Shown here: positions 34,523-51,823 of the stretch, piece by piece | How positions within the stretch are numbered: the first letter of the stretch is position 1 | Layout: each line of letters starts with the position of its first letter | NCBI GenBank assembly: GCA_012729335.1 | Contig: JAAYDJ010000037.1 | Coordinates: 1 to 64,000, forward strand | Length of the DNA stretch: 64,000 bases | Reading direction: 5' to 3' | Source: Bacteroidales bacterium | GTDB taxonomy: Bacteria; Bacteroidota; Bacteroidia; Bacteroidales; Prolixibacteraceae | Translations under genes and position numbers: made by a program | The notes under the pieces: generated by a model | Databases searched by the model: none | What the model saw: only the letters and a program-made list of their open reading frames with translations | What the model was told of the DNA's origin: nothing

Positions 34523-35230
34523 TTAGTTGAAAATCCGGTTAAAATGGTTTTCCAGGTGCTGGCGCATCCCCTTCCGGAAACGGGAAGCATCACGCTCTGC
34601 CAGAATCTCCACCAACCCCCGGTGGGAGACGTATTTCTTATGCACCCCCGTTTTATGGATCAATCCGCTGGAATAGACATAGTTGAAAACAGGAAGGAGT
34701 AATTGCTGGAATCCCCTGAGGGTTTCATTTCCTGTGATGTCATAGAGTTTGCCGTGGAACCTCACCTCGTAATCGACATCGAACAAGGTATCCGCGGAGG
34801 GGGAGTCTTCATTGCTGACAATCTGCCTCAGTTCCTCCAGGTCCTGGTCGGTAATTCTGCGGACGACCAGATCGGCCATGCCGACTTCCAGGACCAGCCT
34901 GAGTTCAAAGGCATCCCTGAGGGAGCGCTGGTTCAGGATATTGGGAATCATCGACTTCTGCAGGATCTGTGGCAGGTCGGGACTCTTGATCAGGGTGCCC
35001 TTATGCTTGATGGATTCGATCAAACCCATCGTCTTGAGCCGGTTCAGGGATTCCCTGATTACCGTGCGGCTCACCCCCATCACCTGGGCCAGTTCCAACT
35101 CCTTGGGAATCACATCACCCGGGCTCAGTTCCTGCTTGATGAAGAAATCGATCAGATTCATCTCCACCTTGTCCACAAGGCTCCTTGTATCCACGGCCCC
35201 TATCCCTGCTATCATATCCTGCGTCATCAT
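34523..35230 (-). CDS. GntR/FadR-type regulator of the sialic-acid locus
   Basis: This 235-residue regulator has a winged helix-turn-helix (about 25-90: LSPGDVIPKELELAQVMGVSRTVIRESLNRLKTMGLI, IKHKGTLIK) and an all-helical FCD effector domain (about 100-225), with Asp/His residues (FDVDYEVRFHGKLYDITGN, HRGLVEILAERD, HLENHF) that bind metal in this subfamily. NanR of E. coli belongs to the same FadR subfamily. It is transcribed away from susC, with two TATGT-N3-ACATA dyads in between, and probably controls both directions. The ligand is likely Neu5Ac or ManNAc, by context only. Confidence 0.87.
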   Translation of the reverse strand: MMTQDMIAGIGAVDTRSLVDKVEMNLIDFFIKQELSPGDVIPKELELAQVMGVSRTVIRESLNRLKTMGLIESIKHKGTLIKSPDLPQILQKSMIPNILNQRSLRDAFELRLVLEVGMADLVVRRITDQDLEELRQIVSNEDSPSADTLFDVDYEVRFHGKLYDITGNETLRGFQQLLLPVFNYVYSSGLIHKTGVHKKYVSHRGLVEILAERDASRFRKGMRQHLENHFNRIFN

Positions 35231-35483: not shown

Positions 35484-38400
35484 ATGAACAAATTTTCTGT
35501 ACTGAAGCCGGTTTTACTGGCATTGGCAGTTCTGCTGTCGTTCGGACAGGTTCTGGCCCAGATGACGGTTTCCGGGACTGTTACGGATGCGCGCGACGGA
35601 TCCACACTTCCCGGAGTCAACATCGTGGTTGTGGGAACAACCGCAGGGACCATTACCGACATCGACGGTAATTTCACCCTGGCACTACCGGCCAGCGCCA
35701 AAGAGCTCATGGTTTCCATGGTGGGATACTCATCGCTGACGCTGCCTATCGGGGAGACGCAGGTATTCAACATTGCGCTGAAGGAAGCCACCAAGGCGCT
35801 TGACGAGGTGGTGATCGTAGGGTATGGTACCCAAAAGCGAAGCACCATCACCGGATCGGTGACCAAACTGGATGCCAAGCTTCTCGAGACGGGGGTTCGC
35901 TCCAATCCTGCCCAGGCGCTGGCTGGGACCATTCCTGGTTTAAGGGTGGCCACCACCTCAGGCCGCCCCGGATCGCTTCCCACCATTGTCCTCAGGGGGG
36001 GTACCAACTTCGACGGGTCGGGCAGCCCGCTTATCATTATGGACGGCCAGATCCGAGGTTCCATGAGTGATATCAATCCGGAGGAGATCGCCAGTATCGA
36101 GGTGCTCAAAGACGCTTCTGCCACAGCCATTTACGGAGCCCGTGCCAGCAACGGGGTGATCCTGATCACCTCCAAGAGGGGAAAAAGCGGGGCCGCCCAG
36201 GTGAATGTCAAAGTGAGAAGGGGAGTCAGCTATCTGAATGTCCCCTATGATTTTGAAGATGCCGCCGGCTATATCAAGTGGGCCCGTCTCGGTGCTGAAC
36301 AGGCCATCCTGAATGGTACCCTTCCGGTCACCAATGTGGCTGGGGTAGGTCCCCGGGGTACCGGCAACCAGTACAAGGACGCCAACGGTAACATCCTTGA
36401 CGGAAACTACAACTCCACCGCCATCTGGAGCGTAATGCGCCTGAATGACGTCACCAAGGAGCTGTTGAATAAACCGGGCTGGAAATCCATGAAGGATGTG
36501 ATCCCAACCAATCCCGCCGGGAACTATGATCCCAATGGAACCTATTATGACCTGATCTACAAGGATTTCAACTACGGCGATTACGGGCTCAACGAGACCG
36601 CGATCACCCAGGATTACAACGTCGGGTTCAGTGGTGGTAACGACAAGGGCAAGTACTTTGCCAATTTAGGTTACTATGACGAAGGGGGACTTTCACTGGC
36701 TACCTATTATAACAGGCTCAACTTTGCCTTTAACGGGGATTATAAAATCAACAACTGGCTGACTTCGGAAAGCGGGGTTCAGTACGCCCGTGCCAAATGG
36801 CGTGACCAGTCCCTGCAGAATGGGGAGACCAATTACTGGGCCCGCATGCTTTCGGCGCCTCCCACCCTCCGGGGTACCAATGAAAATGGAGAGTGGATTC
36901 TGGGCCGCGATGCCAGCGACGGAAATCCCGCCTTTAATATTGACCAGTACAAACGCGACAACCAGTCCGACAAGTTCACCCTGAACCAGGCTTTGAGGGC
37001 CGACATCATGAAGGGATTGTATGTCAGGGCCAGTGCCATCTGGATGTATGACGAATATTTCCAGGAATCCTTCAATAAAGATTTCCGCACGGGCATCATG
37101 AGTTACACCAATCCCAATACCGGATGGAACAGAAACAGGAATTCCGCGGCAGAGTTCGGGCGGACGACCCGGCAGACCTATAACGCCATTGCCAATTATG
37201 AGACCAAATTCCTCGGGAAAAACAACCTTAATGCCATGGTCGGGTTTGAGTTTTATGATGCCTACTCCACGGGGGTGTATGCCGCCGGATCGTTGGCGCC
37301 TACCGACGATTTCCAGGATCTTGGTCTGACGCTGAACAACAAGGATCAGCAGACCCGCAGTACCGACTCGTGGCACAGCAATGAACGGATCATGTCGGGA
37401 TTTGGCCGGGTCAACTACAACTATGATGAGAAATACCTGCTGACCATGACTATCCGCAGGGATGGGTACTCCCGCCTCCTGGGAGACAACCGTTACGGAA
37501 CATTCCCCGCTTTCTCGGCTGGTTGGCTCCTTCACAAGGAATCATTCATGAAACCCACAGAAAACTGGCTTTCTTACCTGAAGCTGCGTGCCAGCTGGGG
37601 TAAAAACGGGAACGTCGGCGGAATCGGCACTTATGAACTTCAGGGTTCCTACGGATCCCAGACCGCCTACAACGGAGCCATCGGATTCTTACAGACCGGA
37701 CTGGCCAATCCTGCCCTGAGGTGGGAGAAATCCAATACCGTTGAAGTGGGTGCCGACATGGGATTCTTCGACAACCGGGTGTATACCTCTCTCTCCTATT
37801 ACAACAGGGTTACCGACGATAAGATCGCCAGCGTACTCCTTCCCACATCTTCGGGGATCAGCAGTATCCGCACCAACAACGGAAGTATGCGCAACCGGGG
37901 GGTGGAACTGGAATCGACCATCAAGGTGATCCAGAAGAAGGACCTGAAATGGGAAATTGGTTTGAATGGCGCATGGGTCAAGAACACCGTGCTTAAACTC
38001 CCCTTCAACGGCAATGAAAACAACCGTCAGGGCGGACAGCAGATCTACGATCCCAAAACCGGGAAGCTGATTTGGGTTGGCGGCTATCAGGAAGGTCAGG
38101 AGTGGGGTGAGGTCTTCGGTTTTGTAAGCGAAGGGCTTATCCGTACCGATGAAGATCTGGCCAAGTACAATAAGATTGACCTGGCTGCAGGGCAGGCCTG
38201 GTACGGTGCTTCCGCAGGGAAGCGGGTGGCCAGCCAGAAACTGATGACCGAGCGCGGACTTACCGTGGCCGGAGGCTGGATTTCCGCCAAAAAGGGCGAT
38301 GTGATGTGGAAGGATATTGATCAGAACGACACCATCGATACCCGTGATATGGTTTCCCTGGGCCGCCAACTTCCCAGAATCACCGGCGGTATCAACACTT

Positions 38401-38858
38401 CTCTGACTTACAAGGGAATCGGACTGGCCGCAAGAATGGACTTTGCACTGGGTCATGTCCAGCAGGACCAGATGCAGATGTGGGCTCTGGGGTGCTTCCA
38501 GGGAGAATTCAACATGACCAAGGATGTCAGGAATACCTGGACCCCCGACAATCCGGAGGCTGAACTGCCCCGATACGTGTGGGCCGACCAGCTCAATACC
38601 AAAAACTTCGACCGCCCGAGCAGCATGTTCTGGAGAAAGTCAGATTACCTCGCTTTCCGCGAAGTGACCCTGAGCTACAGCCTGCCTGCCTCCCTGCTTT
38701 CCAGGGTGAAAATTCCCAAGGCTGTCTTTTCGGTCACGGGTCAAAACCTGGGATATCTTACCGACCGGCTGCTGAACCTTCCCGAACGTACCGGTAATAC
38801 CAACGGGGCCTATATCATTCCGACACAGCTGATTTTTGGCCTGGATATTACGTTATAA
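35484..38858 (+). CDS. SusC-like TonB-dependent receptor
   Basis: This 1124-residue outer-membrane transporter has a signal peptide (about 1-26), a CarboxypepD_reg-like domain (29-110: VSGTVTDARDGSTLPGVNIVV, VSMVGYSSL), the SusC TonB-box region (DEVVIVGYGTQKRSTITGSV), a plug with IEVLKDASATAIYGARASNGVILITSK, and a long barrel ending in IIPTQLIFGLDITL. The length is typical for SusC. It imports oligosaccharides captured by the SusD-like lipoprotein encoded 33 nt downstream. Context points to sialylated glycans or free sialic acid. It is driven by the promoter at 35395-35425 and probably repressed at 35431-35445. Confidence 0.95.
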   Translation: MNKFSVLKPVLLALAVLLSFGQVLAQMTVSGTVTDARDGSTLPGVNIVVVGTTAGTITDIDGNFTLALPASAKELMVSMVGYSSLTLPIGETQVFNIALKEATKALDEVVIVGYGTQKRSTITGSVTKLDAKLLETGVRSNPAQALAGTIPGLRVATTSGRPGSLPTIVLRGGTNFDGSGSPLIIMDGQIRGSMSDINPEEIASIEVLKDASATAIYGARASNGVILITSKRGKSGAAQVNVKVRRGVSYLNVPYDFEDAAGYIKWARLGAEQAILNGTLPVTNVAGVGPRGTGNQYKDANGNILDGNYNSTAIWSVMRLNDVTKELLNKPGWKSMKDVIPTNPAGNYDPNGTYYDLIYKDFNYGDYGLNETAITQDYNVGFSGGNDKGKYFANLGYYDEGGLSLATYYNRLNFAFNGDYKINNWLTSESGVQYARAKWRDQSLQNGETNYWARMLSAPPTLRGTNENGEWILGRDASDGNPAFNIDQYKRDNQSDKFTLNQALRADIMKGLYVRASAIWMYDEYFQESFNKDFRTGIMSYTNPNTGWNRNRNSAAEFGRTTRQTYNAIANYETKFLGKNNLNAMVGFEFYDAYSTGVYAAGSLAPTDDFQDLGLTLNNKDQQTRSTDSWHSNERIMSGFGRVNYNYDEKYLLTMTIRRDGYSRLLGDNRYGTFPAFSAGWLLHKESFMKPTENWLSYLKLRASWGKNGNVGGIGTYELQGSYGSQTAYNGAIGFLQTGLANPALRWEKSNTVEVGADMGFFDNRVYTSLSYYNRVTDDKIASVLLPTSSGISSIRTNNGSMRNRGVELESTIKVIQKKDLKWEIGLNGAWVKNTVLKLPFNGNENNRQGGQQIYDPKTGKLIWVGGYQEGQEWGEVFGFVSEGLIRTDEDLAKYNKIDLAAGQAWYGASAGKRVASQKLMTERGLTVAGGWISAKKGDVMWKDIDQNDTIDTRDMVSLGRQLPRITGGINTSLTYKGIGLAARMDFALGHVQQDQMQMWALGCFQGEFNMTKDVRNTWTPDNPEAELPRYVWADQLNTKNFDRPSSMFWRKSDYLAFREVTLSYSLPASLLSRVKIPKAVFSVTGQNLGYLTDRLLNLPERTGNTNGAYIIPTQLIFGLDITL

Positions 38859-40787: not shown

Positions 40788-42446
40788 ATGAAGATGCATC
40801 CCAGACCTCACATTCTCCCGGTTTTTCTCAGTCTGATCATGATTTCCGGGCTTTCATGGCAGTGTAAAACGATGATTAAGCCTGATATCGTCGAAATCAT
40901 TCCGGAGATAGAAGTTATTCAGCCCCGTATTCCCATGTTTGCCGGCACCTGGAATGAAGGGATGGTCACCGTGCAACTGGAGGTTCCTGAAAACGGAGCG
41001 CTTCCGGTTCTGAAGAGGGTATCCCTTGATTTTTCGCAGAAGAGTGACCTGTCAGGCATTGACTCGGTCAGGGTCAGGTGGACTGACGGTGATCAGGTGG
41101 GGCATCTGGGGCTTGTCTCAGCGGTATCGACGCATCTGGAGGTTCCAGCTGAAGTCGTATTGGAACCCGGAGCCCTGCGGTTGAGTGTTGATTTTTTCCT
41201 GAAGCCGGAGGCCGGTTTGATGACCCGTTTCGGTTTGGAAGGCCTGGAACTCTCCTTCCGGAATTATAAAACATGGAAGTTTACCCCGGAAGAGCGTTAT
41301 GTGACGCGGACGGCCCTTCGGTTGCGGGCAGCCGGCCAGGACAACTGTGATACCTACCGTATACCGGGATTGGTCACCACCGGTAAGGGAACCCTTATAG
41401 CGGTGTACGACAACCGTTACAACAACAGCAAGGATTTGCAGGAAGATATTGACGTGGGCATGAGCCGGAGTACCGATGGTGGCCAGAGCTGGGAGCCCAT
41501 GCGGGTGATCATGGACCTGGGTGAGTGGGGTGGCCGTCCGCAACGCCTTAACGGCGTGGGCGATCCCGCGGTTTTGTACGACCACACCACCGGGACCATC
41601 TGGGTTGCCGCACTCTGGATCAGCGGATTCAATGAAAAGGATATGCTGTGGTGGGCCTCGAAACCGGGTATGAAGCCCAATGAAACCGGGCAGTTTCTTC
41701 TGGTGAAAAGTACCGACGACGGCCTGACCTGGTCCGACCCCATCAATATTACCGAACAGATTAAAGATCCCGCGTGGCAGTTGCTCTTTCAGGGTCCCGG
41801 GGCGGGCATTACCCTTGCCGACGGAACGCTTGTATTTGCGGCGCAGTTTAAAATGGATACGGGTAGCAAATCCCTTGATGGCGGCCAATATACCTGTCAT
41901 TCGACCATTGTGTACAGCAAAGACGGCGGCCAAAGCTGGCATATTGGTACCGGGGCCAAACCCAACACCACCGAAGCACAGGTGGTGCAGCTTTCCGACG
42001 GGAGCCTTATGCTCAACATGCGCGACGACCTCAACCGCCGCGTGAAGGACGACACCAACGGCCGGGCTGTTTCTGTCACCAACGACCTGGGGCAGACCTG
42101 GACGATGCATCCCACATCGAACGCAGCATTGCCGGAACCCAATTGCATGGCCAGTATCATTGGTGCCGACCTTACCGTCAACGGGAACAAACAACGGGTG
42201 CTCTTTTTCAGCAACCCCAACAACAAAAACCAGCGCACCAATATGACCATTAAGGCCAGTCTCGACGATGGAAACAGCTGGCCCCAGGCACTGCAGGTGG
42301 AACTGTTTGCATCTGCCGGCTATGGTTACTCCTGCCTTACCATGGTCGATGAAAACCACGTGGGGATCGTTTATGAAGGCGTGAAGGAACTCTTTTTCCA
42401 GAAAGTTCCGGTCGCCGAGATTATAAACCAGGGAGAAGACCGGTGA
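40788..42446 (+). CDS. nanH: Exo-sialidase, GH33 family
   Basis: This 552-residue lipoprotein (Cys26 in LSWQC) releases terminal sialic acids from glycans. Residues about 40-165 form the N-terminal beta-sandwich found in Bacteroidota sialidases, and residues 170-545 the six-bladed propeller. The YRIPGL motif (190-195) gives Arg191 of the Arg triad; the other two are probably Arg412 (NMRDD) and Arg483 (NQRTNMT). Glu396 (TEAQ) fits the general catalytic Glu. Five Asp boxes are seen: STDGGQSW (228-235), STDDGLTW (308-315), SKDGGQSW (377-384), NDLGQTW (432-438) and SLDDGNSW (491-498). The stop overlaps the GTG of the next gene by three bases. Confidence 0.93.
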   Translation: MKMHPRPHILPVFLSLIMISGLSWQCKTMIKPDIVEIIPEIEVIQPRIPMFAGTWNEGMVTVQLEVPENGALPVLKRVSLDFSQKSDLSGIDSVRVRWTDGDQVGHLGLVSAVSTHLEVPAEVVLEPGALRLSVDFFLKPEAGLMTRFGLEGLELSFRNYKTWKFTPEERYVTRTALRLRAAGQDNCDTYRIPGLVTTGKGTLIAVYDNRYNNSKDLQEDIDVGMSRSTDGGQSWEPMRVIMDLGEWGGRPQRLNGVGDPAVLYDHTTGTIWVAALWISGFNEKDMLWWASKPGMKPNETGQFLLVKSTDDGLTWSDPINITEQIKDPAWQLLFQGPGAGITLADGTLVFAAQFKMDTGSKSLDGGQYTCHSTIVYSKDGGQSWHIGTGAKPNTTEAQVVQLSDGSLMLNMRDDLNRRVKDDTNGRAVSVTNDLGQTWTMHPTSNAALPEPNCMASIIGADLTVNGNKQRVLFFSNPNNKNQRTNMTIKASLDDGNSWPQALQVELFASAGYGYSCLTMVDENHVGIVYEGVKELFFQKVPVAEIINQGEDR

Positions 42447-44413
42447 AAAGGGCCACATTTTTACCCATTGCCATCTTGTTGCTGGCTGAGCTGGTTGCCG
42501 GCTGCCAGACCGGCGTCCCTGTGGCGGATCATGGGGCCCCGGCATTAATTCCCATGCCCCGGCAGATGGTTTGGAACCAACAGCAGTTTAACCTTGCCGA
42601 CAGCAGTACGCGTTTTATTCAGCGGTTGGTCCCGCACCTGGAAGGGGTCGCCATGAACCACCACGAAGCCTATTCGCTGGTGGTGACCCACGACTCCCTG
42701 ATTCTGACAGCCATAACCCCCACGGGGTTGTACCGCGGCATGCAAACCGTGCGGCAACTCACCACGGTTGAAAAGGGCCAGCGGCTGGTGGCCGGGTGTA
42801 CCATCACCGATTGGCCGGCTTTCCGCATCCGCGGATTTATGCAGGATGTGGGCCGTAATTATCAGCCAATGGAGATGCTGAAAGAGCAGATTGACGTACT
42901 GGCCGCCTATAAAATGAATGTTTTTCATTTTCATATGACCGAAGATCCGGGTTGGCGCCTGGAGAGCAAGATTTACCCTCAGTTGGGCCATCCCGCAACG
43001 ATGAGCCGGTGGCCGGGAAGGTTGTATACGCAGAACGAATTCAGGGAGCTGGTAGCCTATTGCCAGGAGCGGCACATCACGCTGATTCCCGAGTTTGATG
43101 TCCCGGGTCACAGTACCGCCTTCCGCAAGGCGATGGGTTTTGAAACCATGAGCGACCCGGGGGTACAGCCGGTTCTGATCGCTCTGGTAGATGAGTTGTG
43201 CAGTCTGGCCCCTGCCGATATTATGCCTTACATTCATATCGGTACCGATGAGGTTTGGCACAATTACGAGAAGCCCTCGCCGACCCTGTTGCCGGCGTTG
43301 GTTGACCGCATCACCACCCATCATGGCCGCGAAGTGGTAGTTTGGCGGCCCGGACAGGCCATTGCCACCGATTCGGTTTCCATTACCCACCTCTGGTCGT
43401 CCAATGGCCATCCCAAGCCGGGGCACCGTTACCTCGACGCACGGCTCAACTACCTGAATCACCTCGATCCGCTGGCAGGTATAGCCCAGCTCTACTTCGA
43501 ACGGATCAGCGGGGCACCCCACGGCGATTCACTGCGCTTGGGAGGCATACTGTGCAACTGGAACGACAACCTGGTGGCCGACCCCTATGATGTCATCCTC
43601 CACAATCCGGTCTACCCCGGTATTGTCACTTACAGCGAAACCTCCTGGACTGGCCAGTCCCTCGACTTTGGGGAGCAATATCTGGCCAAATTCCCACCTG
43701 TAAACGATGAGGCTTTTATTCGTTTCGCCCATTTTGAAGAGCGTCTTATCGCCCACCGTGACCGCTATTTTACCCGTCTGCCTTTCCCCTACGTGAGGCA
43801 AACCAATATGGAATGGCGCATTGCAGGGCCCTTTGACCACGGCGGCGATGTGAATCGCTCTTTTCAGCCTGAAGAATCGATTGTGGCCGGATATGTGGAT
43901 GGTATGGACACCATTGGCTGGTCTGAACCTGTGACCGGCGGCACCGTACACCTCACCCATTTTTTCGGATACCCTTCCTACTTTGCCAGTCAGGAGGGGA
44001 CTTACTATGCCTGGACACGGATATGGTCGCCCCAAAAGCAGACCGTGGATGCCTGGATCAGCTTTCATGACTGGTCACGGTCAGGAGGGCGAAGGGGCGG
44101 GCCTTTTCCCGAACAGGGCCAATGGCACAACACCCACCCCAAAGTCTGGGTAAACGGCATGCCGGTGGAACCACCGGTTTGGAAGCAACCGGGTGTGGAG
44201 GTGAAATCCGATGAGGTGCCCTTTGCCGACGAAAACTACTACTTCCGTCCACCCTCGCAGGTTGGGTTGAGGAAAGGATGGAATACGGTGCTGCTGAAAA
44301 TTCCGGTCCAGGCCAGTACCTGGAAGCGCATGTTCACTTTTGTTCCGGTGGACCAATCCCGGGGTCAGGCACGTGAGGTGGAAGGCCTGAGGTATTCGGC
44401 ACAATTTGAATGA
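42443..44413 (+). CDS. GH20 beta-N-acetylhexosaminidase
   Basis: This 656-residue lipoprotein (LVAGC, Cys21) starts with GTG at 42443 inside the sialidase stop (GTGA), a translational coupling arrangement. It has the GH20b N-terminal domain (about 35-120) and the catalytic TIM barrel (about 125-440) with NVFHFHMTEDPGWR, LIPEFDVPGHS and IHIGTDEVW, which contains the Asp269-Glu270 pair. The C-terminal 190 residues form an extra beta-sandwich likely to bind sugar. GH20 enzymes use substrate-assisted cleavage of terminal GlcNAc or GalNAc, which fits trimming of glycans after sialic acid is removed. Confidence 0.93.
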   Translation: MKRATFLPIAILLLAELVAGCQTGVPVADHGAPALIPMPRQMVWNQQQFNLADSSTRFIQRLVPHLEGVAMNHHEAYSLVVTHDSLILTAITPTGLYRGMQTVRQLTTVEKGQRLVAGCTITDWPAFRIRGFMQDVGRNYQPMEMLKEQIDVLAAYKMNVFHFHMTEDPGWRLESKIYPQLGHPATMSRWPGRLYTQNEFRELVAYCQERHITLIPEFDVPGHSTAFRKAMGFETMSDPGVQPVLIALVDELCSLAPADIMPYIHIGTDEVWHNYEKPSPTLLPALVDRITTHHGREVVVWRPGQAIATDSVSITHLWSSNGHPKPGHRYLDARLNYLNHLDPLAGIAQLYFERISGAPHGDSLRLGGILCNWNDNLVADPYDVILHNPVYPGIVTYSETSWTGQSLDFGEQYLAKFPPVNDEAFIRFAHFEERLIAHRDRYFTRLPFPYVRQTNMEWRIAGPFDHGGDVNRSFQPEESIVAGYVDGMDTIGWSEPVTGGTVHLTHFFGYPSYFASQEGTYYAWTRIWSPQKQTVDAWISFHDWSRSGGRRGGPFPEQGQWHNTHPKVWVNGMPVEPPVWKQPGVEVKSDEVPFADENYYFRPPSQVGLRKGWNTVLLKIPVQASTWKRMFTFVPVDQSRGQAREVEGLRYSAQFE

Positions 44414-44428
44414 TCATATAGCAGAAAA

Positions 44429-47140
44429 ATGATAACCAGGTTTTTGTACTTGTTAATGGGATGGTGGTGTATGGCCGGGATGGCACCTGCAGGGGGGACT
44501 GTGCAGGAGTCTTCGGCGGCTGAACCCACCAGAGTGGCATGCGTGGGCAATTCGGTGACCCGTGGTTATGGTCTGGCTGATCCTGCTGATGAGGCCTACC
44601 CGTCACAACTGCAGAAACTGCTGGGTGAAGAGTATGTGGTGGGGAACTTCGGTCACAGTGGGGCCACGCTTCTCTCCAAGGGACACCGTCCTTATGTGCT
44701 GACTCCCGAATATGCCGGGGCGCTCGATTTCAACGCCGATGTGGTGGTGATCCATTTGGGACTGAACGATACCGACCCGCGCAACTGGCCCAACCACCGT
44801 GACGCGTTTATTGCCGATTACCTGCGGCTCATTGAATCCTTTAAGCAGAACCGTCATCCGGCTCCGAAGGTGTTCATTTGCCGGATGTCTCCCATTTTCA
44901 ATGCCCATCCCCGGTTTAAGTCGGGTACGCGCGACTGGTTTTGGGAGATTCAGGAGGCCATTGAACAGGTGGCCACCAGTACAGGTACCCCGTTGATTGA
45001 TTTGCACACGCCGTTAGCCCAACGCCCCGATTTATTTGAGGATGCGCTTCACCCCAATGCGGAAGGCGCAGGGATCATTGCCCAAACCGTGTATGAGATG
45101 CTGACCGGTGATTTTGGCGGATTGGAGCTGGCTCCGGTTTTCATGTCTGACATGGTTTTGCAGCAAAACAGGCCCATCCCGGTCTGGGGAAAAGCCAATG
45201 CCGGTCAGACCATAGAAGTCGCTTTCGGGAATCAGCGGCTCACCGCCGTGGCTGGTCAAAACGGCCAGTGGAAGGTTGTTTTTCAGCCTGTTCCCGCCGG
45301 GGGGCCCTTCTCCCTTACCGTGAGCGCCGGCGACACTTCTGAGGTTACCCTGCACAATATTTTGGTGGGCGAAGTGTGGGTTTGTGCCGGGCAGTCCAAT
45401 ATGGAGTTCAGGTTAAAGCAGGCCCGGAACGCACAACAGATGATATCGGCGGCCGGTAACGACCAGCTGCGGCTCCTGAACAAAACCGGCATCGTGCGGC
45501 CCGATGATGTGGTTTGGGACAGTCTGTCCCTGGCCCGCATTAACAGGCTGCACTATTTTGAAGGCCTCTGGAAACCTTCGACACCGGAAGAAGCCGCAGA
45601 ATTTTCGGCCATCGGGTACAGCTTTGGCAAGATGGTTGCTGACGCGCTGCGGGTTCCTGTGGGGCTGATCCACATCAGCGTGGGCGGTGCGCCCGTCGAA
45701 GCCTTTATCGACCGTGGAACCCTTGAGTTTGATCCCACCCTGGTGGATGTGCTCACCAACTGGAAACAGAACGACTTTTACATGGATTGGGTACGTTCGC
45801 GTGCAGCCCGCAATCTGGCCAGCAACTCCGCCAAATTGCAGCGCCACCCCTTTGAACCGGCCTATATTTATGAGGCAGCAGTGGACGAATGGAAGGGATT
45901 ACCCATAGCCGGGGTAATTTGGTACCAGGGAGAGTCCAATGCCCACAACGCCTTGCATTACCAAAATGCGTTCAGGGCGCTGGTGAAGTCGTGGCGTACC
46001 ACCTTTAACCAGTCCGATCTGCCCTTTTATTTTGCCCAGCTGTCGGGGATTGACCGGCCGTCATGGCCCTATTTCAGAGATGTGCAGCGCAGGCTGGCCC
46101 TTAGTGTTCCGCACACGGCCATGGTGGTCACTGCCGACCTGGGTGATTCCCTTGATGTGCATCCGGTCAGGAAAATAGAAATTGGCCGGCGGTTTGCAGC
46201 CACGGCCCTGGCCCATACCTACCGGGTGGCGGGCGTAGCCTCAGGGGGCCCCGAAGTCGAATCGGTAAAAATGGAAAACGGGAAACTGATCCTTTCCTTC
46301 TCCAATGCGGAAAGTCTGCACACTTCCGACAACCTGCCTGTCAGGGAACTGGAAACAGCCGGGCCGGATGGCCTCTTTACGCTGAGAGAGGCACAAATTG
46401 TGGGGAACAGGCTTATCGTGGAGACCGGGGAAGCTTCCATCAGCCGTGTCCGTTATGGATGGCGTCCTTACACCCGGGGAAACCTGGTCAATCCATCGGG
46501 ATGGCCCGCCTCCACCTTTGAAGCCGGATGCCCTTCCGGACAGGAGGTGGCTCCCTCCACCTACTATGCGCAGCGGCGTACTTTGTTTGAAATGCTTCCC
46601 AACACCAAAAGGGAAATCATTTTTCTGGGCAACAGCATAACCGACGGGGCCGAATGGTCGGAACTGTTTCAGAACAAGCGGGTTAAAAACAGGGGGATCA
46701 GCGGAGACCATACCGGAGGTGTCCTCGCCCGGCTCGCGGAGGTGACCGCCTCAAAACCGGAAAAAGTGTTCCTCCTCATTGGCATCAATGATCTTGCACG
46801 CGGGATTTCAAGGGATACCGTGCTGGCACGCATATGCCACATTGCCGCCACCATGGGGAAACATTCACCCAGTACCAAAATCTTTGTGCAAAGTATTTTA
46901 CCGGTTAACCCGGAAATAGGCAGGTTCCCGGGACACTGTTCCAAAACAGAGGAGATCATCTGGATCAATGAAAGACTCAAGGCCTGGTGCAGGCAACCGA
47001 ATGTGGTTTATGTCGATCTGTTCACCCATTTCATCAGCGGTGATCATCACTATATGGATTCCAGGTATACCAATGACGGATTACATTTGAATGGTGAGGG
47101 ATACCTGCAATGGGTCAGGGTGATCAGGCCCCTGATATAA
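44429..47140 (+). CDS. Three-domain esterase: SGNH - sialate O-acetylesterase (SASA) - SGNH
   Basis: This 903-residue secreted protein has a signal at about 1-22. Domain 1 (about 33-225) is an SGNH hydrolase: CVGNSVTRG (Ser42), GNFGHSGAT, LGLNDTD (Asn113) and DALHPN (Asp205, His208). Domain 2 (about 230-700) is a sialate 9-O-acetylesterase of the SASA type with an inserted beta domain: GEVWVCAGQSNME (Ser323), VIWYQGESNA and DVHP (Asp576, His578). Domain 3 (about 725-903) is a second SGNH hydrolase: FLGNSITDG (Ser736), GISGDHTGG, LIGINDLARG (Asn787) and NDGLHLN (Asp883, His886). All three active sites look complete. It should strip O-acetyl groups that block sialidase. It follows GH20 after 15 nt. 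Confidence 0.9.
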   Translation: MITRFLYLLMGWWCMAGMAPAGGTVQESSAAEPTRVACVGNSVTRGYGLADPADEAYPSQLQKLLGEEYVVGNFGHSGATLLSKGHRPYVLTPEYAGALDFNADVVVIHLGLNDTDPRNWPNHRDAFIADYLRLIESFKQNRHPAPKVFICRMSPIFNAHPRFKSGTRDWFWEIQEAIEQVATSTGTPLIDLHTPLAQRPDLFEDALHPNAEGAGIIAQTVYEMLTGDFGGLELAPVFMSDMVLQQNRPIPVWGKANAGQTIEVAFGNQRLTAVAGQNGQWKVVFQPVPAGGPFSLTVSAGDTSEVTLHNILVGEVWVCAGQSNMEFRLKQARNAQQMISAAGNDQLRLLNKTGIVRPDDVVWDSLSLARINRLHYFEGLWKPSTPEEAAEFSAIGYSFGKMVADALRVPVGLIHISVGGAPVEAFIDRGTLEFDPTLVDVLTNWKQNDFYMDWVRSRAARNLASNSAKLQRHPFEPAYIYEAAVDEWKGLPIAGVIWYQGESNAHNALHYQNAFRALVKSWRTTFNQSDLPFYFAQLSGIDRPSWPYFRDVQRRLALSVPHTAMVVTADLGDSLDVHPVRKIEIGRRFAATALAHTYRVAGVASGGPEVESVKMENGKLILSFSNAESLHTSDNLPVRELETAGPDGLFTLREAQIVGNRLIVETGEASISRVRYGWRPYTRGNLVNPSGWPASTFEAGCPSGQEVAPSTYYAQRRTLFEMLPNTKREIIFLGNSITDGAEWSELFQNKRVKNRGISGDHTGGVLARLAEVTASKPEKVFLLIGINDLARGISRDTVLARICHIAATMGKHSPSTKIFVQSILPVNPEIGRFPGHCSKTEEIIWINERLKAWCRQPNVVYVDLFTHFISGDHHYMDSRYTNDGLHLNGEGYLQWVRVIRPLI

Positions 47141-47212
47141 GCGATATTCAGAAGTTAAAGAGAAGTGAGCAAGAGTATAAAAAATATTAACTCAGGTAAA
47201 AAACAGACCATT

Positions 47213-48127
47213 ATGCAAAAGTTTGAAGGTTTGATCGCAGCTCCGTTTGCTCCTTTTAACGGAGCCGGAGAGATCATGACGGAAGCGATTCCGGGGTATT
47301 GTGAGTTTCTGGAAAAGAACAAGGTGGTAGGAGCCTTTATCAACGGTTCCACAGGGGAAGGGGTTTCCCTTTCCATGAAGGAAAAGATGGTGGTTACGGA
47401 AGCGTGGACGGCTGCCGCGAGGCATAAAAGCATCAAAATCATCAATTTGGTGGGGGGTACTTCGTACAGGGAGTCGGCGGAGGCGGCGATTCACTCGGCG
47501 GAAGCCGGCGTGGATGCCATTGCCATCCTGGCTCCGTACTATTTCAAGCCTGCCGGAGCCCCGCAACTGGCCGAATTCTGCGCGCGCATTGCCGAAACCG
47601 TTCCCCAATTGCCGGTATATTTTTACCATATTCCGGTGTTGACAGGATGTTATGTCAGCATGTACGATTTCCTGAAGGAAGCTTCGGCGATGATTCCCAA
47701 CCTGGCCGGAATCAAATACACCCATGAGGATTTCATGGATTTCCTGAGTTGTATCCATTTCCAGGAGGGGGAGTACGACATGATGTGGGGCCGCGACGAG
47801 AACATGCTGTCGGCCCTGGTGCTGGGTTGCCGCAGTGGTGTGGGCAGCACGTTTAATTATGCCGCACCCCTCTATTATGCACTTATTGACGCCTTTGACA
47901 AGGGTGACCTGGTCACTGCGCGCAGGCTGCAGCAGCAATCGATCGATATGATCCGCCTGCTGGGTAAATATGGCGGTATTGCCACCGGAAAGGCCTACAT
48001 GAAATATCTCGGATTCGATTTTGGCGGATTCAGGCTTCCTGTGAAGAATATGACTGCCGGCATGTACGATAAATTCAAGGGTGATGTGCAAGCGCTTCAG
48101 ATGGAACACCTCTTCTCGAAAAGGTAG
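47213..48127 (+). CDS. nanA: N-acetylneuraminate lyase
   Basis: This cytoplasmic aldolase of 304 residues, started at the ATG at 47213 (a GTG 48 nt upstream is less likely), splits Neu5Ac into ManNAc and pyruvate. It belongs to the DapA/NAL superfamily: GSTGEG (45-50) binds the pyruvate carboxylate, Tyr138 (FYHIP) is the catalytic Tyr, and Lys168 (GIKYTHED) forms the Schiff base. The GIKYTHED context is typical for NAL rather than dihydrodipicolinate synthase. It corresponds to the lyase called nanL in Bacteroides. It lies about 70 nt behind the esterase gene and its end overlaps the longer version of nanM. Confidence 0.93.
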   Translation: MQKFEGLIAAPFAPFNGAGEIMTEAIPGYCEFLEKNKVVGAFINGSTGEGVSLSMKEKMVVTEAWTAAARHKSIKIINLVGGTSYRESAEAAIHSAEAGVDAIAILAPYYFKPAGAPQLAEFCARIAETVPQLPVYFYHIPVLTGCYVSMYDFLKEASAMIPNLAGIKYTHEDFMDFLSCIHFQEGEYDMMWGRDENMLSALVLGCRSGVGSTFNYAAPLYYALIDAFDKGDLVTARRLQQQSIDMIRLLGKYGGIATGKAYMKYLGFDFGGFRLPVKNMTAGMYDKFKGDVQALQMEHLFSKR

Positions 48128-49283
48128 TTTCCGGTTTTTAATAATGGTGACCATGACGGCAGTTTTGACAGTATCGTGTGATAACCGGGAAAAGGAGGTT
48201 ACCGCACTTCAGTGGGAGGAGTTACCTCAGATGCCCCCTGTCGAAGGGAAGGCGGTGCAGCCCGGAGTGGCGGGACCTGTGGCCGGTGTTTCGGGGGGAA
48301 CCCTTTTGGTGGCCGGTGGGGCCAACTTCGAAGGGGAGATGCCCTGGCGGGGTGGTGCCAAGAGTTACCATGATGAGATTTTCCTGCTTGAGAATGGCAA
48401 CGGGGAGGGATTTGCCTGGAGAATGGCCGCCGAAAGGCTTCCCCACGCCATGGCCTATCCGGCCTGCCTCTCTCTGGAGGAGGGCATCCTGTGCATGGGA
48501 GGTGAAACCGAAAGCGGCCCGCTGGCTGAGGTCTTCCTGCTGACGGTTGACCACGGGAAGGTGTTGATCCGTGATTTTCCACCTCTTCCGGTGCCGCTCT
48601 CCTCACCTGGTGCTGCACAGTACGGTGAAAAAATATATCTTGCAGGTGGTTTGGATGCAGCAGGAGCGACCGATGTCTTTATGGTATTGGACCTGGGGGA
48701 TCCGGGGAAAGGGTGGCAAATGCTTCCTCCGCTGCCGGTACCCCTTTCGCATGGTGTTGTGGCGGCCCAGTCCGACGGGAAGGAGTGGTGTATTTACCTC
48801 TTTGGGGGGCGGAACAAAACCACCGCGGTGCACACCTTTTTCAGCGACATATGGAAATTCACACCCTCCACGGCTGTATGGACCAGGGAGGGTAGGATCA
48901 TGAAGGAAGGCCAGCCTCTTCCGTTAGCGGCAGGCACAGGCCTGGCGGCAGGCGGCTGTCAGGTACTTCTTTTCGGCGGCGATCCCGGGATCTATTTCAA
49001 CCGCACGGAAACGCTGAACAACGCGTTGGCGGTGGCCGGGGATTCCCTGAAGAAGGAGCTTCTGGCCGAGAAAGAGGCCTTGTTGAGCGGCCATCCGGGA
49101 TTTCTCCGTGAGATCCTGGCCTATCACACCTTGCGTAAAGAGTGGTCTGTGATCGGGGAGGCCCCGGAGGGACTTCCCGCTACGACGGTGGCCTTTTTCT
49201 GGGGGGAAATGGTTGTCATTCCCGGCGGGGAGATCCGTCCGGGAGTCAGGACGCCCGGGGTCACCGCTTTTAAAATGAAATAA
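48081..49283 (+). CDS. nanM: N-acetylneuraminate mutarotase-like Kelch protein (NanM type)
   Basis: This 400-residue Kelch propeller matches the cyclically permuted mutarotase (NanM) family: [71 protein letters not shown] and [17 protein letters not shown]. NanM speeds conversion of alpha-Neu5Ac, released by sialidase, to the beta form. The N-terminus is a lipoprotein signal (TAVLTVSC). Starting at 48081 gives it a basic n-region (KRFRW...SRK) and overlaps nanA by 47 nt. The ATG at 48144 avoids the overlap but leaves a signal with no positive charge, so I prefer the longer form. Confidence 0.88.
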
Positions 49284-49356
49284 ACCAGGTTTGCAGAACC
49301 CGCCTGCGAAAGCAGGTTGGTCAGCCGGCCAGGAAAAACCTGAAATTCCGGAAAAA

Positions 49357-50517
49357 ATGGAAAAGGAAAAACTCATACATCAGTACAAATCGGCCCTGCT
49401 TGACGATGTCGTCCCTTTCTGGGAGAATAACTCGAAGGATGAGCGGTATGGGGGCTACTTTACCTGCCTTGACCGGCAGGGGAGGGTGTACGACACCGAC
49501 AAGTTCATTTGGCTGCAGGGGAGGGAGGTCTGGATGTTCTCTTCGCTGTACAACCGGGTGGAGAAAAAGGAGGCCTGGCTGGAGATGGCCCTTCACGGGG
49601 CGCGATTTCTGCAGAAATACGGCCACGACGGAGAGCTGAACTGGTATTTTTCGCTGACAAGGGAGGGGAAACCCCTGGTGGAGCCCTATAATATTTTCAG
49701 TGACTGTTTTGCCACCATGGCTTTTGGTCAGCTTTTCAGGGCCACGGGTGACGAACAGTATGGGGAGATTGCCCTGAAGACTTTCGGGAATATTCTGGGC
49801 CGCGCCGGAAATCCCAAGGGCCGCTGGAGCAAGGCTGTGGCTGGCACGCGCCCCCTGAAAGGGTTCAGCCTCCCCATGATCCTGTGCAACCTCTCGCTCG
49901 AAATCGAGCACCTGCTCACACGTGAAAGGGTGGAGGCGACTATCGATCAGGTGCTGCACGAGGTGATGGAGGTCTTTTACCAGCCTGAATCGGGGCTGAT
50001 CCTGGAGAATGTACAGCCCGACGGGAGCTTCAGTGATTCCTATGAGGGGAGGCTCCTCAATCCGGGGCATGCCATCGAGGCGATGTGGTTTATCATGGAT
50101 CTATCGACCCGGCTCAACAGGCCAGCTCTGGCTGAAAAGGCGGTGGACATCGCCCTGCGCACCCTGGAATATGGCTGGGATGAGGAGTTCGGAGGCATCT
50201 TTTATTTCATGGATCTCCTTGGTCATCCGGTGCAGCAGCTTGAGTGGGACCAGAAACTCTGGTGGGTGCACATGGAAACACTGATCACCCTGGCCAAGGG
50301 GTATCAGCTTACCGGTAATCCTCAATGCCTGACCTGGTTTGAAAAGGTGCACGATTACACCTGGTCACACTTCCCCGATCCGCAGTACGGCGAGTGGTTC
50401 GGATACCTCAACCGCCGCGGAGAGGTGCTCCTGCCCCTCAAGGGAGGCAAGTGGAAAGGCTTCTTCCATGTGCCACGTGGTTTGTACCAGGTCTACACCA
50501 CCCTTGAAAAAATCTGA
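49357..50517 (+). CDS. N-acylglucosamine 2-epimerase
   Basis: This cytoplasmic enzyme of 386 residues (start at the ATG at 49357; an upstream TTG at 49291 is unlikely) is related to renin-binding protein/AGE. It interconverts ManNAc and GlcNAc without phosphorylation. The (alpha/alpha)6 barrel is complete, with both catalytic His residues in their usual context: [13 protein letters not shown] (His238) and [11 protein letters not shown] (His371). Further blocks are [27 protein letters not shown] and [13 protein letters not shown]. In this locus it replaces the NanK/NanE route: ManNAc from the lyase becomes GlcNAc, to be phosphorylated by a kinase encoded elsewhere. It sits between nanM and the MFS gene. 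Confidence 0.93.
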
Positions 50518-50542: not shown

Positions 50543-51823
50543 ATGATGAAGATAGAGCATAAAACATGGTATCCCTGGGCAGTGGTTGCGCTGCTGTGGG
50601 TGGTGGCCCTGCTTAATTACATGGACCGGCAGATGCTTTCGACGATGAAAGTGGCCATGATGGGCGACATCAGGGAACTGGAAACCGCAGAGAATTTCGG
50701 GCGGCTGATGGCCGTTTTCCTCTGGATTTACGGACTGATGAGTCCCATGGCGGGGCTCATTGCCGACCGTATCAACCGCAAGTGGCTCATTGTGGGCAGT
50801 TTGGGTGTATGGTCGTTTGTCACCCTGATGATGGGATATGCCACATCGTTCAGCCAGCTGTATGTGTTGCGGGCCATTATGGGAGTAAGTGAGGCGTTGT
50901 ACATTCCGGCGGGACTGGCGTTGATTGCCGATTATCACCGGGGCAATACGCGTTCCCTGGCGGTGGGCATTCACATGACCGGGTTGTATGTGGGGCAGGC
51001 CCTGGGTGGCTTTGGGGCGACCGTCGCCCACACCTGGTCGTGGCAAACCGCCTTTCACAGCTTCGGACTGATCGGGGTGGCATACAGCCTGGTGCTGGTT
51101 TTCCTGTTGCGCGAAAAACGGTCGAACGGTCAGGTAAGTAATGAAAGGAAGGCGGTGGCACCCTCCGGTGCTGTGAAGTCAGGGTTTGCGGCCGGATGGG
51201 ATTCGGTGCGTCACAGCCTGGGGATGCTCCTGGGGACCGTCAGTTTCTGGGTTATCCTGTTTTATTTTGCGGCGCCCAGTTTCCCGGGGTGGGCCACCAA
51301 AAACTGGCTGCCGACGCTTTTCTCTGACAGTCTGGGAATTGACATGGCGAAGGCGGGACCGCTGAGCACCATCACCATTGCCTTCTCCTCTTTTGTGGGG
51401 GTGATTTCCGGGGGAATCCTGGCCGACAGGTGGATCACGCGTAACCTCCGGGGCCGTATTTTTACGGGGGCCATCGGTTTGTCCCTGACCATTCCCGCCT
51501 TGTTTCTGCTGGGATTCGGCCACTCACTGGTGCCCATCGTAGGGGGAGGGATTCTCTTTGGTGTGGGCTATGGGATGTTTGATGCCAACAACATGCCGAT
51601 TCTCTGTCAGTTTGTATCTCCGCGTCACAGGGCAGCCGGTTACGGGCTGATGAACATGACGGGGGTATTTGCGGGGGCTTTCATTACCAGCTGGCTGGGC
51701 AAGTCGACCGATGCGGGCAACCTGGGTCAGGATCTGGCGATGCTGGCCATTCCCGTGGCGTTGGCCGTGGTTCTTCAGCTGGCAACGCTCAAGCCCGTGG
51801 TGGCCGATAAAACCCAGGACTGA
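50543..51823 (+). CDS. MFS transporter, probable sialic-acid permease
   Basis: This 426-residue inner-membrane protein has about 12 transmembrane helices and the anion:cation-symporter signature of the MFS: LLNYMDRQMLSTM in helix 1, the GLIADRINRKWLIVG loop 2-3 motif and its repeat GGILADRWITRNLRGR in the second half. Its place at the end of the sialic-acid locus, 25 nt after the epimerase gene, indicates uptake of Neu5Ac (NanT role as in Bacteroides nanLET). Uptake of another monosaccharide of the pathway cannot be excluded. Confidence 0.87.
   Translation: MMKIEHKTWYPWAVVALLWVVALLNYMDRQMLSTMKVAMMGDIRELETAENFGRLMAVFLWIYGLMSPMAGLIADRINRKWLIVGSLGVWSFVTLMMGYATSFSQLYVLRAIMGVSEALYIPAGLALIADYHRGNTRSLAVGIHMTGLYVGQALGGFGATVAHTWSWQTAFHSFGLIGVAYSLVLVFLLREKRSNGQVSNERKAVAPSGAVKSGFAAGWDSVRHSLGMLLGTVSFWVILFYFAAPSFPGWATKNWLPTLFSDSLGIDMAKAGPLSTITIAFSSFVGVISGGILADRWITRNLRGRIFTGAIGLSLTIPALFLLGFGHSLVPIVGGGILFGVGYGMFDANNMPILCQFVSPRHRAAGYGLMNMTGVFAGAFITSWLGKSTDAGNLGQDLAMLAIPVALAVVLQLATLKPVVADKTQD

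Follow-up and report, generated by a model that had tools for sequence, protein, structure and literature searches.

A probable three-site sialate O-acetylesterase, apparently formed by in-frame fusion of two sialic acid operon genes in a Prolixibacteraceae bacterium

A single gene of a Prolixibacteraceae bacterium quite probably encodes a three-site sialate O-acetylesterase that arose when two adjacent sialic acid operon genes fused in frame. The gene lies in a stretch of 64,000 nucleotides (GenBank assembly GCA_012729335.1, contig JAAYDJ010000037.1, positions 1 to 64,000, forward strand) that we analysed as a whole and refer to as the window. A preliminary description made from the sequence had proposed a single 903-residue chain with consecutive SGNH, SASA, and SGNH domains; its frame, length, and coordinates proved exact. 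The gene, its three domains (D1 to D3), and the fusion junction are as follows.

44429..47140, + strand: three-domain esterase gene; one open reading frame (ORF), 903 codons plus stop
44513..45118, + strand: D1, SGNH (Lipase_GDSL_2), residues ~29-230; from Pfam, conservation, and fold
45119..46537, + strand: D2, SASA/CE20-type, residues ~231-703; from Pfam, structure-chain sequence match, conservation, and fold
46520..46555, + strand: fusion junction, residues 698-709; 36 nt from the D2 end (ASTF) to the D3 start (STYY)
46538..47137, + strand: D3, EstA/PvSAE-type SGNH esterase, residues ~704-903; from sequence match, conservation, and fold

All Pfam matches exceeded their cut-offs. Two stretches of the 903-residue chain matched Lipase_GDSL_2, with a whole-protein score of 181.8 bits (cut-off, 32.9), and one stretch matched SASA, with 73.1 bits (cut-off, 24.8). 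Each domain shows homology to a family along its length, so chance is not an issue. The protein is predicted to be secreted, solely from its hydrophobic N terminus.

The nucleophile positions are Ser42 in D1, Ser323 in D2, and Ser736 in D3. We determined conservation in 70 aligned rows for D1-D2 (the window and 69 relatives) and in 28 aligned rows for D3 (the window and 27 relatives). Residues S42, G75, N113, D205, and H208 of D1 were kept in 70/70 rows, as were Q322, S323, and G420 of D2; H578 of D2 was kept in 69/70. Position D576 of D2 was Asp in 50 of the 70 rows and Asn in 20, an alternation that has been described for CE20 at this type of position (PMC12313940). In D3, S736, N787, D883, and H886 were kept in 28/28 rows and G759 was kept in 27/28. 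These five residues of D3 correspond one to one, by spacing, to the catalytic residues S52, G75, N103, D199, and H202 of PvSAE, and D3 Q715 has the same spacing as Gln31, which is reported to lie in the PvSAE dimer contact (PMC9063846). Hence, all three serines named as nucleophiles in the preliminary description are conserved in the aligned relatives. The Ser, Asn/Gly, and Asp-His set that it had assigned to each domain was correct for D1 and D3, but "Asn/Gly" was too loose for D2, whose catalytic set is of the CE20 kind, with a Gln and Gly oxyanion hole, a GQSNM nucleophile motif, and a DxH block V. As a separate observation, the D2 catalytic His is replaced by Arg (DVRP for DVHP) in two contigs of one Marinilabiliaceae metagenome-assembled genome (MAG) (L124:1402-3651 and L132:1522-3651), where D2 may be dead.

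We built AlphaFold2 models separately for the D1-D2 half (pLDDT, 93.4) and the D3 half (pLDDT, 86.9). The top matches of D1 were SGNH hydrolases (Z, ~21; rmsd, 2.1 to 2.7 over 169 to 189 residues). D2 matched CE20 enzymes (Z, 41.5 to 43.4) and mammalian SIAE (Z, 36.4 to 37.3); structures of these enzymes (PDB 7kmm, 9h4u, 9ega, and 8f9o) share the D2 fold and its GQSNM and DxH motifs. D3 matched the sialate O-acetylesterase PvSAE of Phocaeicola vulgatus (6xpg/7pzg; TM, 0.92; rmsd, 1.3; 51% identity over 193 columns); the two share their catalytic residues and an SGNH type I fold. The earlier assignment of D1 and D3 to the SGNH fold was thus borne out by structural matches in both cases. D2 lacks the beta-sandwich ancillary insert, having ~24 residues where CE20 9h4u has ~175 (the alignment skips ~230-405). 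Its layout is like that of SIAE, which is also without an ancillary domain according to the CE20 paper (PMC12313940), and unlike that of the bacterial CE20 enzymes Fl8 and PpCE20, which carry an inserted ancillary domain. D2 therefore does not have the ancillary domain that characterizes the water-mediated-triad CE20 group.

We also considered whether D3 is a tandem duplicate of D1. Over 99 columns, the two domains are 23% identical (E, 0.004), in agreement with the earlier statement that the two SGNH parts differ. Since D1 and D3 are barely alike, there has been no recent duplication, and duplication of D1 into D3 is also contradicted by the separate relatives of each domain.

The esterase gene is part of a plus-strand run of genes with a divergent GntR regulator, which we conclude is a sialic acid scavenging operon. 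The gene order includes GH33, GH20, and the esterase.

34523..35230, - strand: GntR/FCD-type regulator, divergent from the operon; Pfam
35484..38858, + strand: ORF that we take to be a SusC-like outer-membrane transporter; a similar ORF adjoins SusD in locus L163
38892..40463, + strand: SusD-like protein; Pfam
40788..42446, + strand: sialidase with BNR repeats, GH33-like; Pfam and NCBIfam
42443..44413, + strand: GH20 beta-hexosaminidase, immediately 5′ of the esterase; Pfam
47165..48127, + strand: N-acetylneuraminate lyase-like protein, DHDPS family; Pfam, below NCBIfam cut-offs
48081..49283, + strand: N-acetylneuraminate epimerase (NanM)-like kelch protein, start provisional; Pfam and NCBIfam
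49291..50517, + strand: N-acylglucosamine 2-epimerase; Pfam, over the NCBIfam cut-off
50543..51823, + strand: MFS transporter, from the operon a probable sialic acid importer; Pfam

Domains, residues, and neighboring genes bear out the proposal that one chain encoded within a sialidase operon has three complete catalytic sites. Elsewhere in the same genome (contig 31, L037:4140-6914, - strand), Pfam identified a 924-residue protein with an SASA/CE20 domain and a polysaccharide deacetylase domain, by its sequence another two-site deacetylating enzyme.

To place the fusion, we searched a collection of named genomes for D1-D2 relatives with two peptide patterns, both within D1; 540 of the 589 matched stretches encoded a relative, and the best 80 of the 540 were analysed as loci. 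D1 and D2 occurred in one ORF in all 80, across many Bacteroidota genera, as a Bacteroidota protein of ~700 residues. The flanks of 57 of these 80 loci contained a gene resembling those for sialidase, lyase, or NanM, and those of the other 23 showed none; sialic acid may therefore not be the target of D1-D2 in every case. D3 was present in 21 of the 80, within flanks of at most 4 kb, many of them cut, such that any more distant D3 falls outside. In 13 loci, D3 was a separate gene directly downstream of D1-D2 (L094, L095, L096, L097, L100, L101, L105, L117, L124, L132, L135, L143, and L155; L124 and L132 are near-identical contigs of the one MAG). In two loci (L160 and L170), D3 was directly upstream; in five (L144, L150, L161, L162, and L169), it formed one chain with a GH20 hexosaminidase; and in one (L142), it was at a cut edge. 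The GH20-D3 fusions were in Pontibacter, Mucilaginibacter, and Paraflavisolibacter loci (L161 by Pfam, the others by BLAST only). None of the 80 loci (best 80 of 540) had D1, D2, and D3 in one ORF. Since D1-D2 and D3 stay separate neighboring genes in relatives, we conclude that the three-site enzyme unites two proteins that already existed side by side, a union found in one genome only. This origin had not been recognized in the preliminary description. A different join was seen in a Proteiniphilum MAG (L163:3911-7942), where a 1,343-residue ORF comprises D1, D2, and a GH20 hexosaminidase by Pfam.

We compared the junction with 13 unfused pairs, comprising 12 of the 13 downstream loci (L124 was omitted as a copy) and L086. 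The distance from the conserved D1-D2 end to the D3 start was 124 to 143 nt in 12 of the pairs and 240 nt in L086. In unfused pairs, this spacer carries the D1-D2 tail, its stop codon, and the signal peptide of D3. The window, with 36 nt at this place, has neither that stop nor that signal peptide, and one reading frame runs through both genes. The closest relative, Prolixibacteraceae bacterium UBA1413 (L008/L092, G006), belongs to the same genus as the source of the window and is 68 to 69% identical over D1-D2. In this relative (L008:3600-3735), the D1-D2 stop overlaps the ATG of a 27-codon signal-peptide-like frame, which is followed by the lyase gene. The D3 body is absent at the UBA1413 locus, and none was matched elsewhere in that genome. 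Judging from the sequence, the 27-codon frame is probably what is left of a D3 gene. Comparison with the window junction places both changes at the same spot: one lineage would have lost the enzyme, and the other would have lost the signal peptide and joined the genes.

We infer that the direction of change was fusion rather than a split. The first ancestral gene would have been a two-module SGNH-SASA esterase (D1-D2) and the second a single-domain 9-O-acetylesterase of the EstA/PvSAE type (D3). An in-frame loss of ~90 to 110 bases would have removed the D1-D2 tail and stop together with the D3 signal peptide, leaving all three sites to be carried by one export signal. An AGGAGGT sequence at 46542-46548, just 5′ of the D3 body, resembles a ribosome-binding site and is perhaps a leftover of the fusion, or due to chance; no well-placed in-frame ATG that follows it and preserves the first D3 helix was seen at the junction.

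The window's D1-D2 groups with Prolixibacteraceae (starred in the tree), and its D3 also falls among Prolixibacteraceae, with weak support in a poorly supported D3 tree. A distant horizontal gain of D3 is unsupported given this position. D1-D2 has a GC content of 0.57; that of D3, 0.51, is at the low end of the range of five neighboring operon genes (0.512 to 0.581).

The NanS protein of Tannerella forsythia presumably matches D1-D2 in length and domain arrangement and is probably its counterpart. NanS is described as a two-module sialyl-O-acetylesterase for O7 and O9 (Albers 2021, cited in PMC8319020 and PMC13043746). Like D1-D2 of the window, it has two catalytic modules in one chain and belongs to a sialic acid operon; unlike the window esterase, it is described with no note of a third, EstA-type module. 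The T. forsythia genes for a hexosaminidase (TF0036) and for the NanS esterase (TF0037) have consecutive locus numbers (PMC3352272), and in the window, too, a hexosaminidase gene adjoins the esterase in a sialidase operon. D3 has its own characterized relatives, EstA of Bacteroides fragilis and PvSAE (PDB 6njc, 6xpg, and 7pzg). PvSAE is reported to be 81% identical to EstA and, unlike the window esterase, is described as a single-domain protein of ~220 residues that forms a dimer (PMC9063846). EstA is reported to cleave 9-O- but not 7-O-acetyl groups, the latter having to migrate first (PMC5512079).

O-acetyl groups are reported to block sialidases (PMC9472817, PMC10017367). In the mechanism that we propose, the Ser nucleophile of each site would be activated by His and form an acetyl-enzyme intermediate. 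D3 most likely takes off 9-O-acetyl groups, and D1-D2 most likely deacetylates other side-chain positions, e.g., O7, as well as O9. The three sites would strip poly-O-acetylated sialic acid, the neighboring sialidase would release it, and uptake and catabolism would follow. We infer the activity of each site, its positional specificity, and any benefit of the fusion, with labor among the sites most likely divided by position. The restriction of EstA to 9-O groups, together with the O7 and O9 modules of NanS, suggests that the window protein would cover O9 twice and O7 once, or divide more positions, in one exported chain. The earlier idea that acetyl groups are removed from several positions is plausible because T. 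forsythia NanS has been published as a two-module enzyme with an O7/O9 division. We advance only tentatively a stronger form of this idea, in which three non-redundant sites, each with its own acetyl position (e.g., 7, 9, and 4 or 8), strip poly-O-acetylated sialic acid in one encounter and catch acetyl groups migrating from O7 to O9, an arrangement recently fixed by fusion in one lineage.

Comparable multidomain enzymes have been described. Fll4 of Flavimarina sp. Hel_I_48 was termed in 2025 the first enzyme with three carbohydrate esterase (CE) domains (PMC12247016). It is like the window esterase in having three such domains per chain; unlike it, Fll4 consists of CE6 and two CE1-like domains and acts on xylan (PMC12247016). 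Pfam gave only GDSL, SASA, and GDSL for the window protein, with no CE6- or CE1-type domain. BbSiaBb1 of Bifidobacterium bifidum is likewise a fusion that couples sialate deacetylation to the sialidase step, but with an esterase joined to a sialidase rather than three esterases, as described (PMC10017367). A fused CE6-CE1 protein of B. ovatus is reported to outperform its separate domains with a xylanase, and an F. johnsoniae enzyme is reported to show no such gain from fusion on beechwood (PMC7110780). No report of a three-site sialate esterase was found in the open-licence literature searched. The component domains are known and their combination seems to be new; the protein is an unusual fusion of familiar parts and does not represent a novel type of enzyme. 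By joining them, the fusion singles out two esterase families that are likely to cooperate on the same substrate. The fused chain is also a natural system for testing whether sialidases reach O-acetylated mucin-type glycans faster when 7-O and 9-O deacetylases are linked, and the protein could serve as a convenient single reagent for O-acetyl removal in glycan analysis.

The same fusion could have a different division of substrates, with D1 acting on O-acetyl groups of neighboring sugars (galactose, hexosamine) and D2 and/or D3 acting on sialic acid. From its sequence, a non-sialate substrate for D1 is possible: the best NCBIfam match of D1 was an acetylxylan esterase model (145.6 bits, far below the cut-off of 700), D1 is similar to the C-terminal region of the model for the acetylxylan esterase AxeA1, and its fold matches general carbohydrate acetylesterases. 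The adjoining GH20 hexosaminidase gene is also consistent with such a role. However, D1 shares an ORF with D2 in every one of the best 80 of 540 loci, 57 of these 80 have sialidase-, lyase-, or NanM-like genes in their flanks, and the modules of T. forsythia NanS are reported to act on O7 and O9 of sialic acid. We consider a neighboring-sugar role of D1 unlikely and favor a sialate O-acetylesterase in all three sites.

The state of D3 bears on whether all three sites are active. We found no close D3 in six other genomes of the same genus, two of which are 85% and 66% complete, indicating that D3 is dispensable in the group. This, and the ascription of Fll4 activity to two of its three domains (PMC12247016), would fit a protein in which one domain serves as a scaffold or binds the substrate, which may be the case for the CE1b domain of Fll4. 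However, the catalytic positions are intact in every domain, and the window departs at none of the 73 D3 columns whose conservation in the other 27 rows is 90% or more. We regard an inactive site as quite unlikely. D3 as a decaying passenger is unsupported in the same way: all 73 conserved columns and the catalytic residues are kept, so D3 is not decaying, although its branch is long. In the weakly supported D3 tree, the terminal branch of the window's D3 is 1.05 (tree median, 0.3), and that of its D1-D2 is 0.24. The long branch indicates faster change at variable sites, and the specificity of D3 may have shifted.

We searched for the same three-domain order in three overlapping sets of genomes. 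In the family set, a 150-residue junction query matched 102 of 140 genomes, and only the window's own genome spanned the junction among the matches listed, where any spanning match would be expected near the top; two odd rows were left aside (G159, covering 32-149 in a 246-residue frame, and G114, covering 57-133 with two stops). Full-length searches, with at most two candidates scored per genome, matched 57 of 393 genomes in the order set and 40 of 395 in the phylum set at an E value of 1e-60, and in each only the window's own genome (G000) spanned residues 1-903. The order search also gave three long open frames: that of G375 is two ORFs split by a stop when the DNA is read, and those of G198 and G417 probably correspond to D3 frames of 229 and 238 residues from the D3 search. 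The three-domain order was thus not found elsewhere (1/140, 1/393, and 1/395 genomes, each the window's own). This rarity, and a source genome in 40 contigs with no second assembly of the species seen, might point to an assembly or sequencing artefact joining genes that are separate in the organism, but such an artefact is most improbable given the clean in-frame loss of stop and signal peptide together with 36 coding bases remaining, the fact that a base error would substitute or frameshift and hardly drop ~100 bases at one place, and the different rearrangement at the same spot in the nearest relative.

D3-type esterases also occur in other fusions. The order search gave D3 matches in ten frames of >400 residues besides that of the window, five of which were scanned with Pfam: the partner was GH92 in G043 and G179, GH20 in G399, BNR in G396, and beta-lactamase in G417. 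Four others (G241, G268, G332, and G449) were examined as ORF lists only, and the match in G247 is a 221-residue stand-alone D3. In the family search, the D3-bearing frame of G022 had BNR by Pfam. Since D3 is fused elsewhere to sialidase-type BNR, GH20, GH92, and beta-lactamase-like domains, it is, as judged from these sequences, a mobile esterase module, often joined to glycan-degrading enzymes. Two loci encode a GH92 enzyme with a D3-type esterase at its end (L036:2862-5858 and L079:3880-6876, the latter on the - strand), and GH92 is an unexpected partner for a sialate esterase. In a further locus (L083:1963-3720), one chain carries a beta-lactamase-family domain with a D3-like SGNH domain after it.
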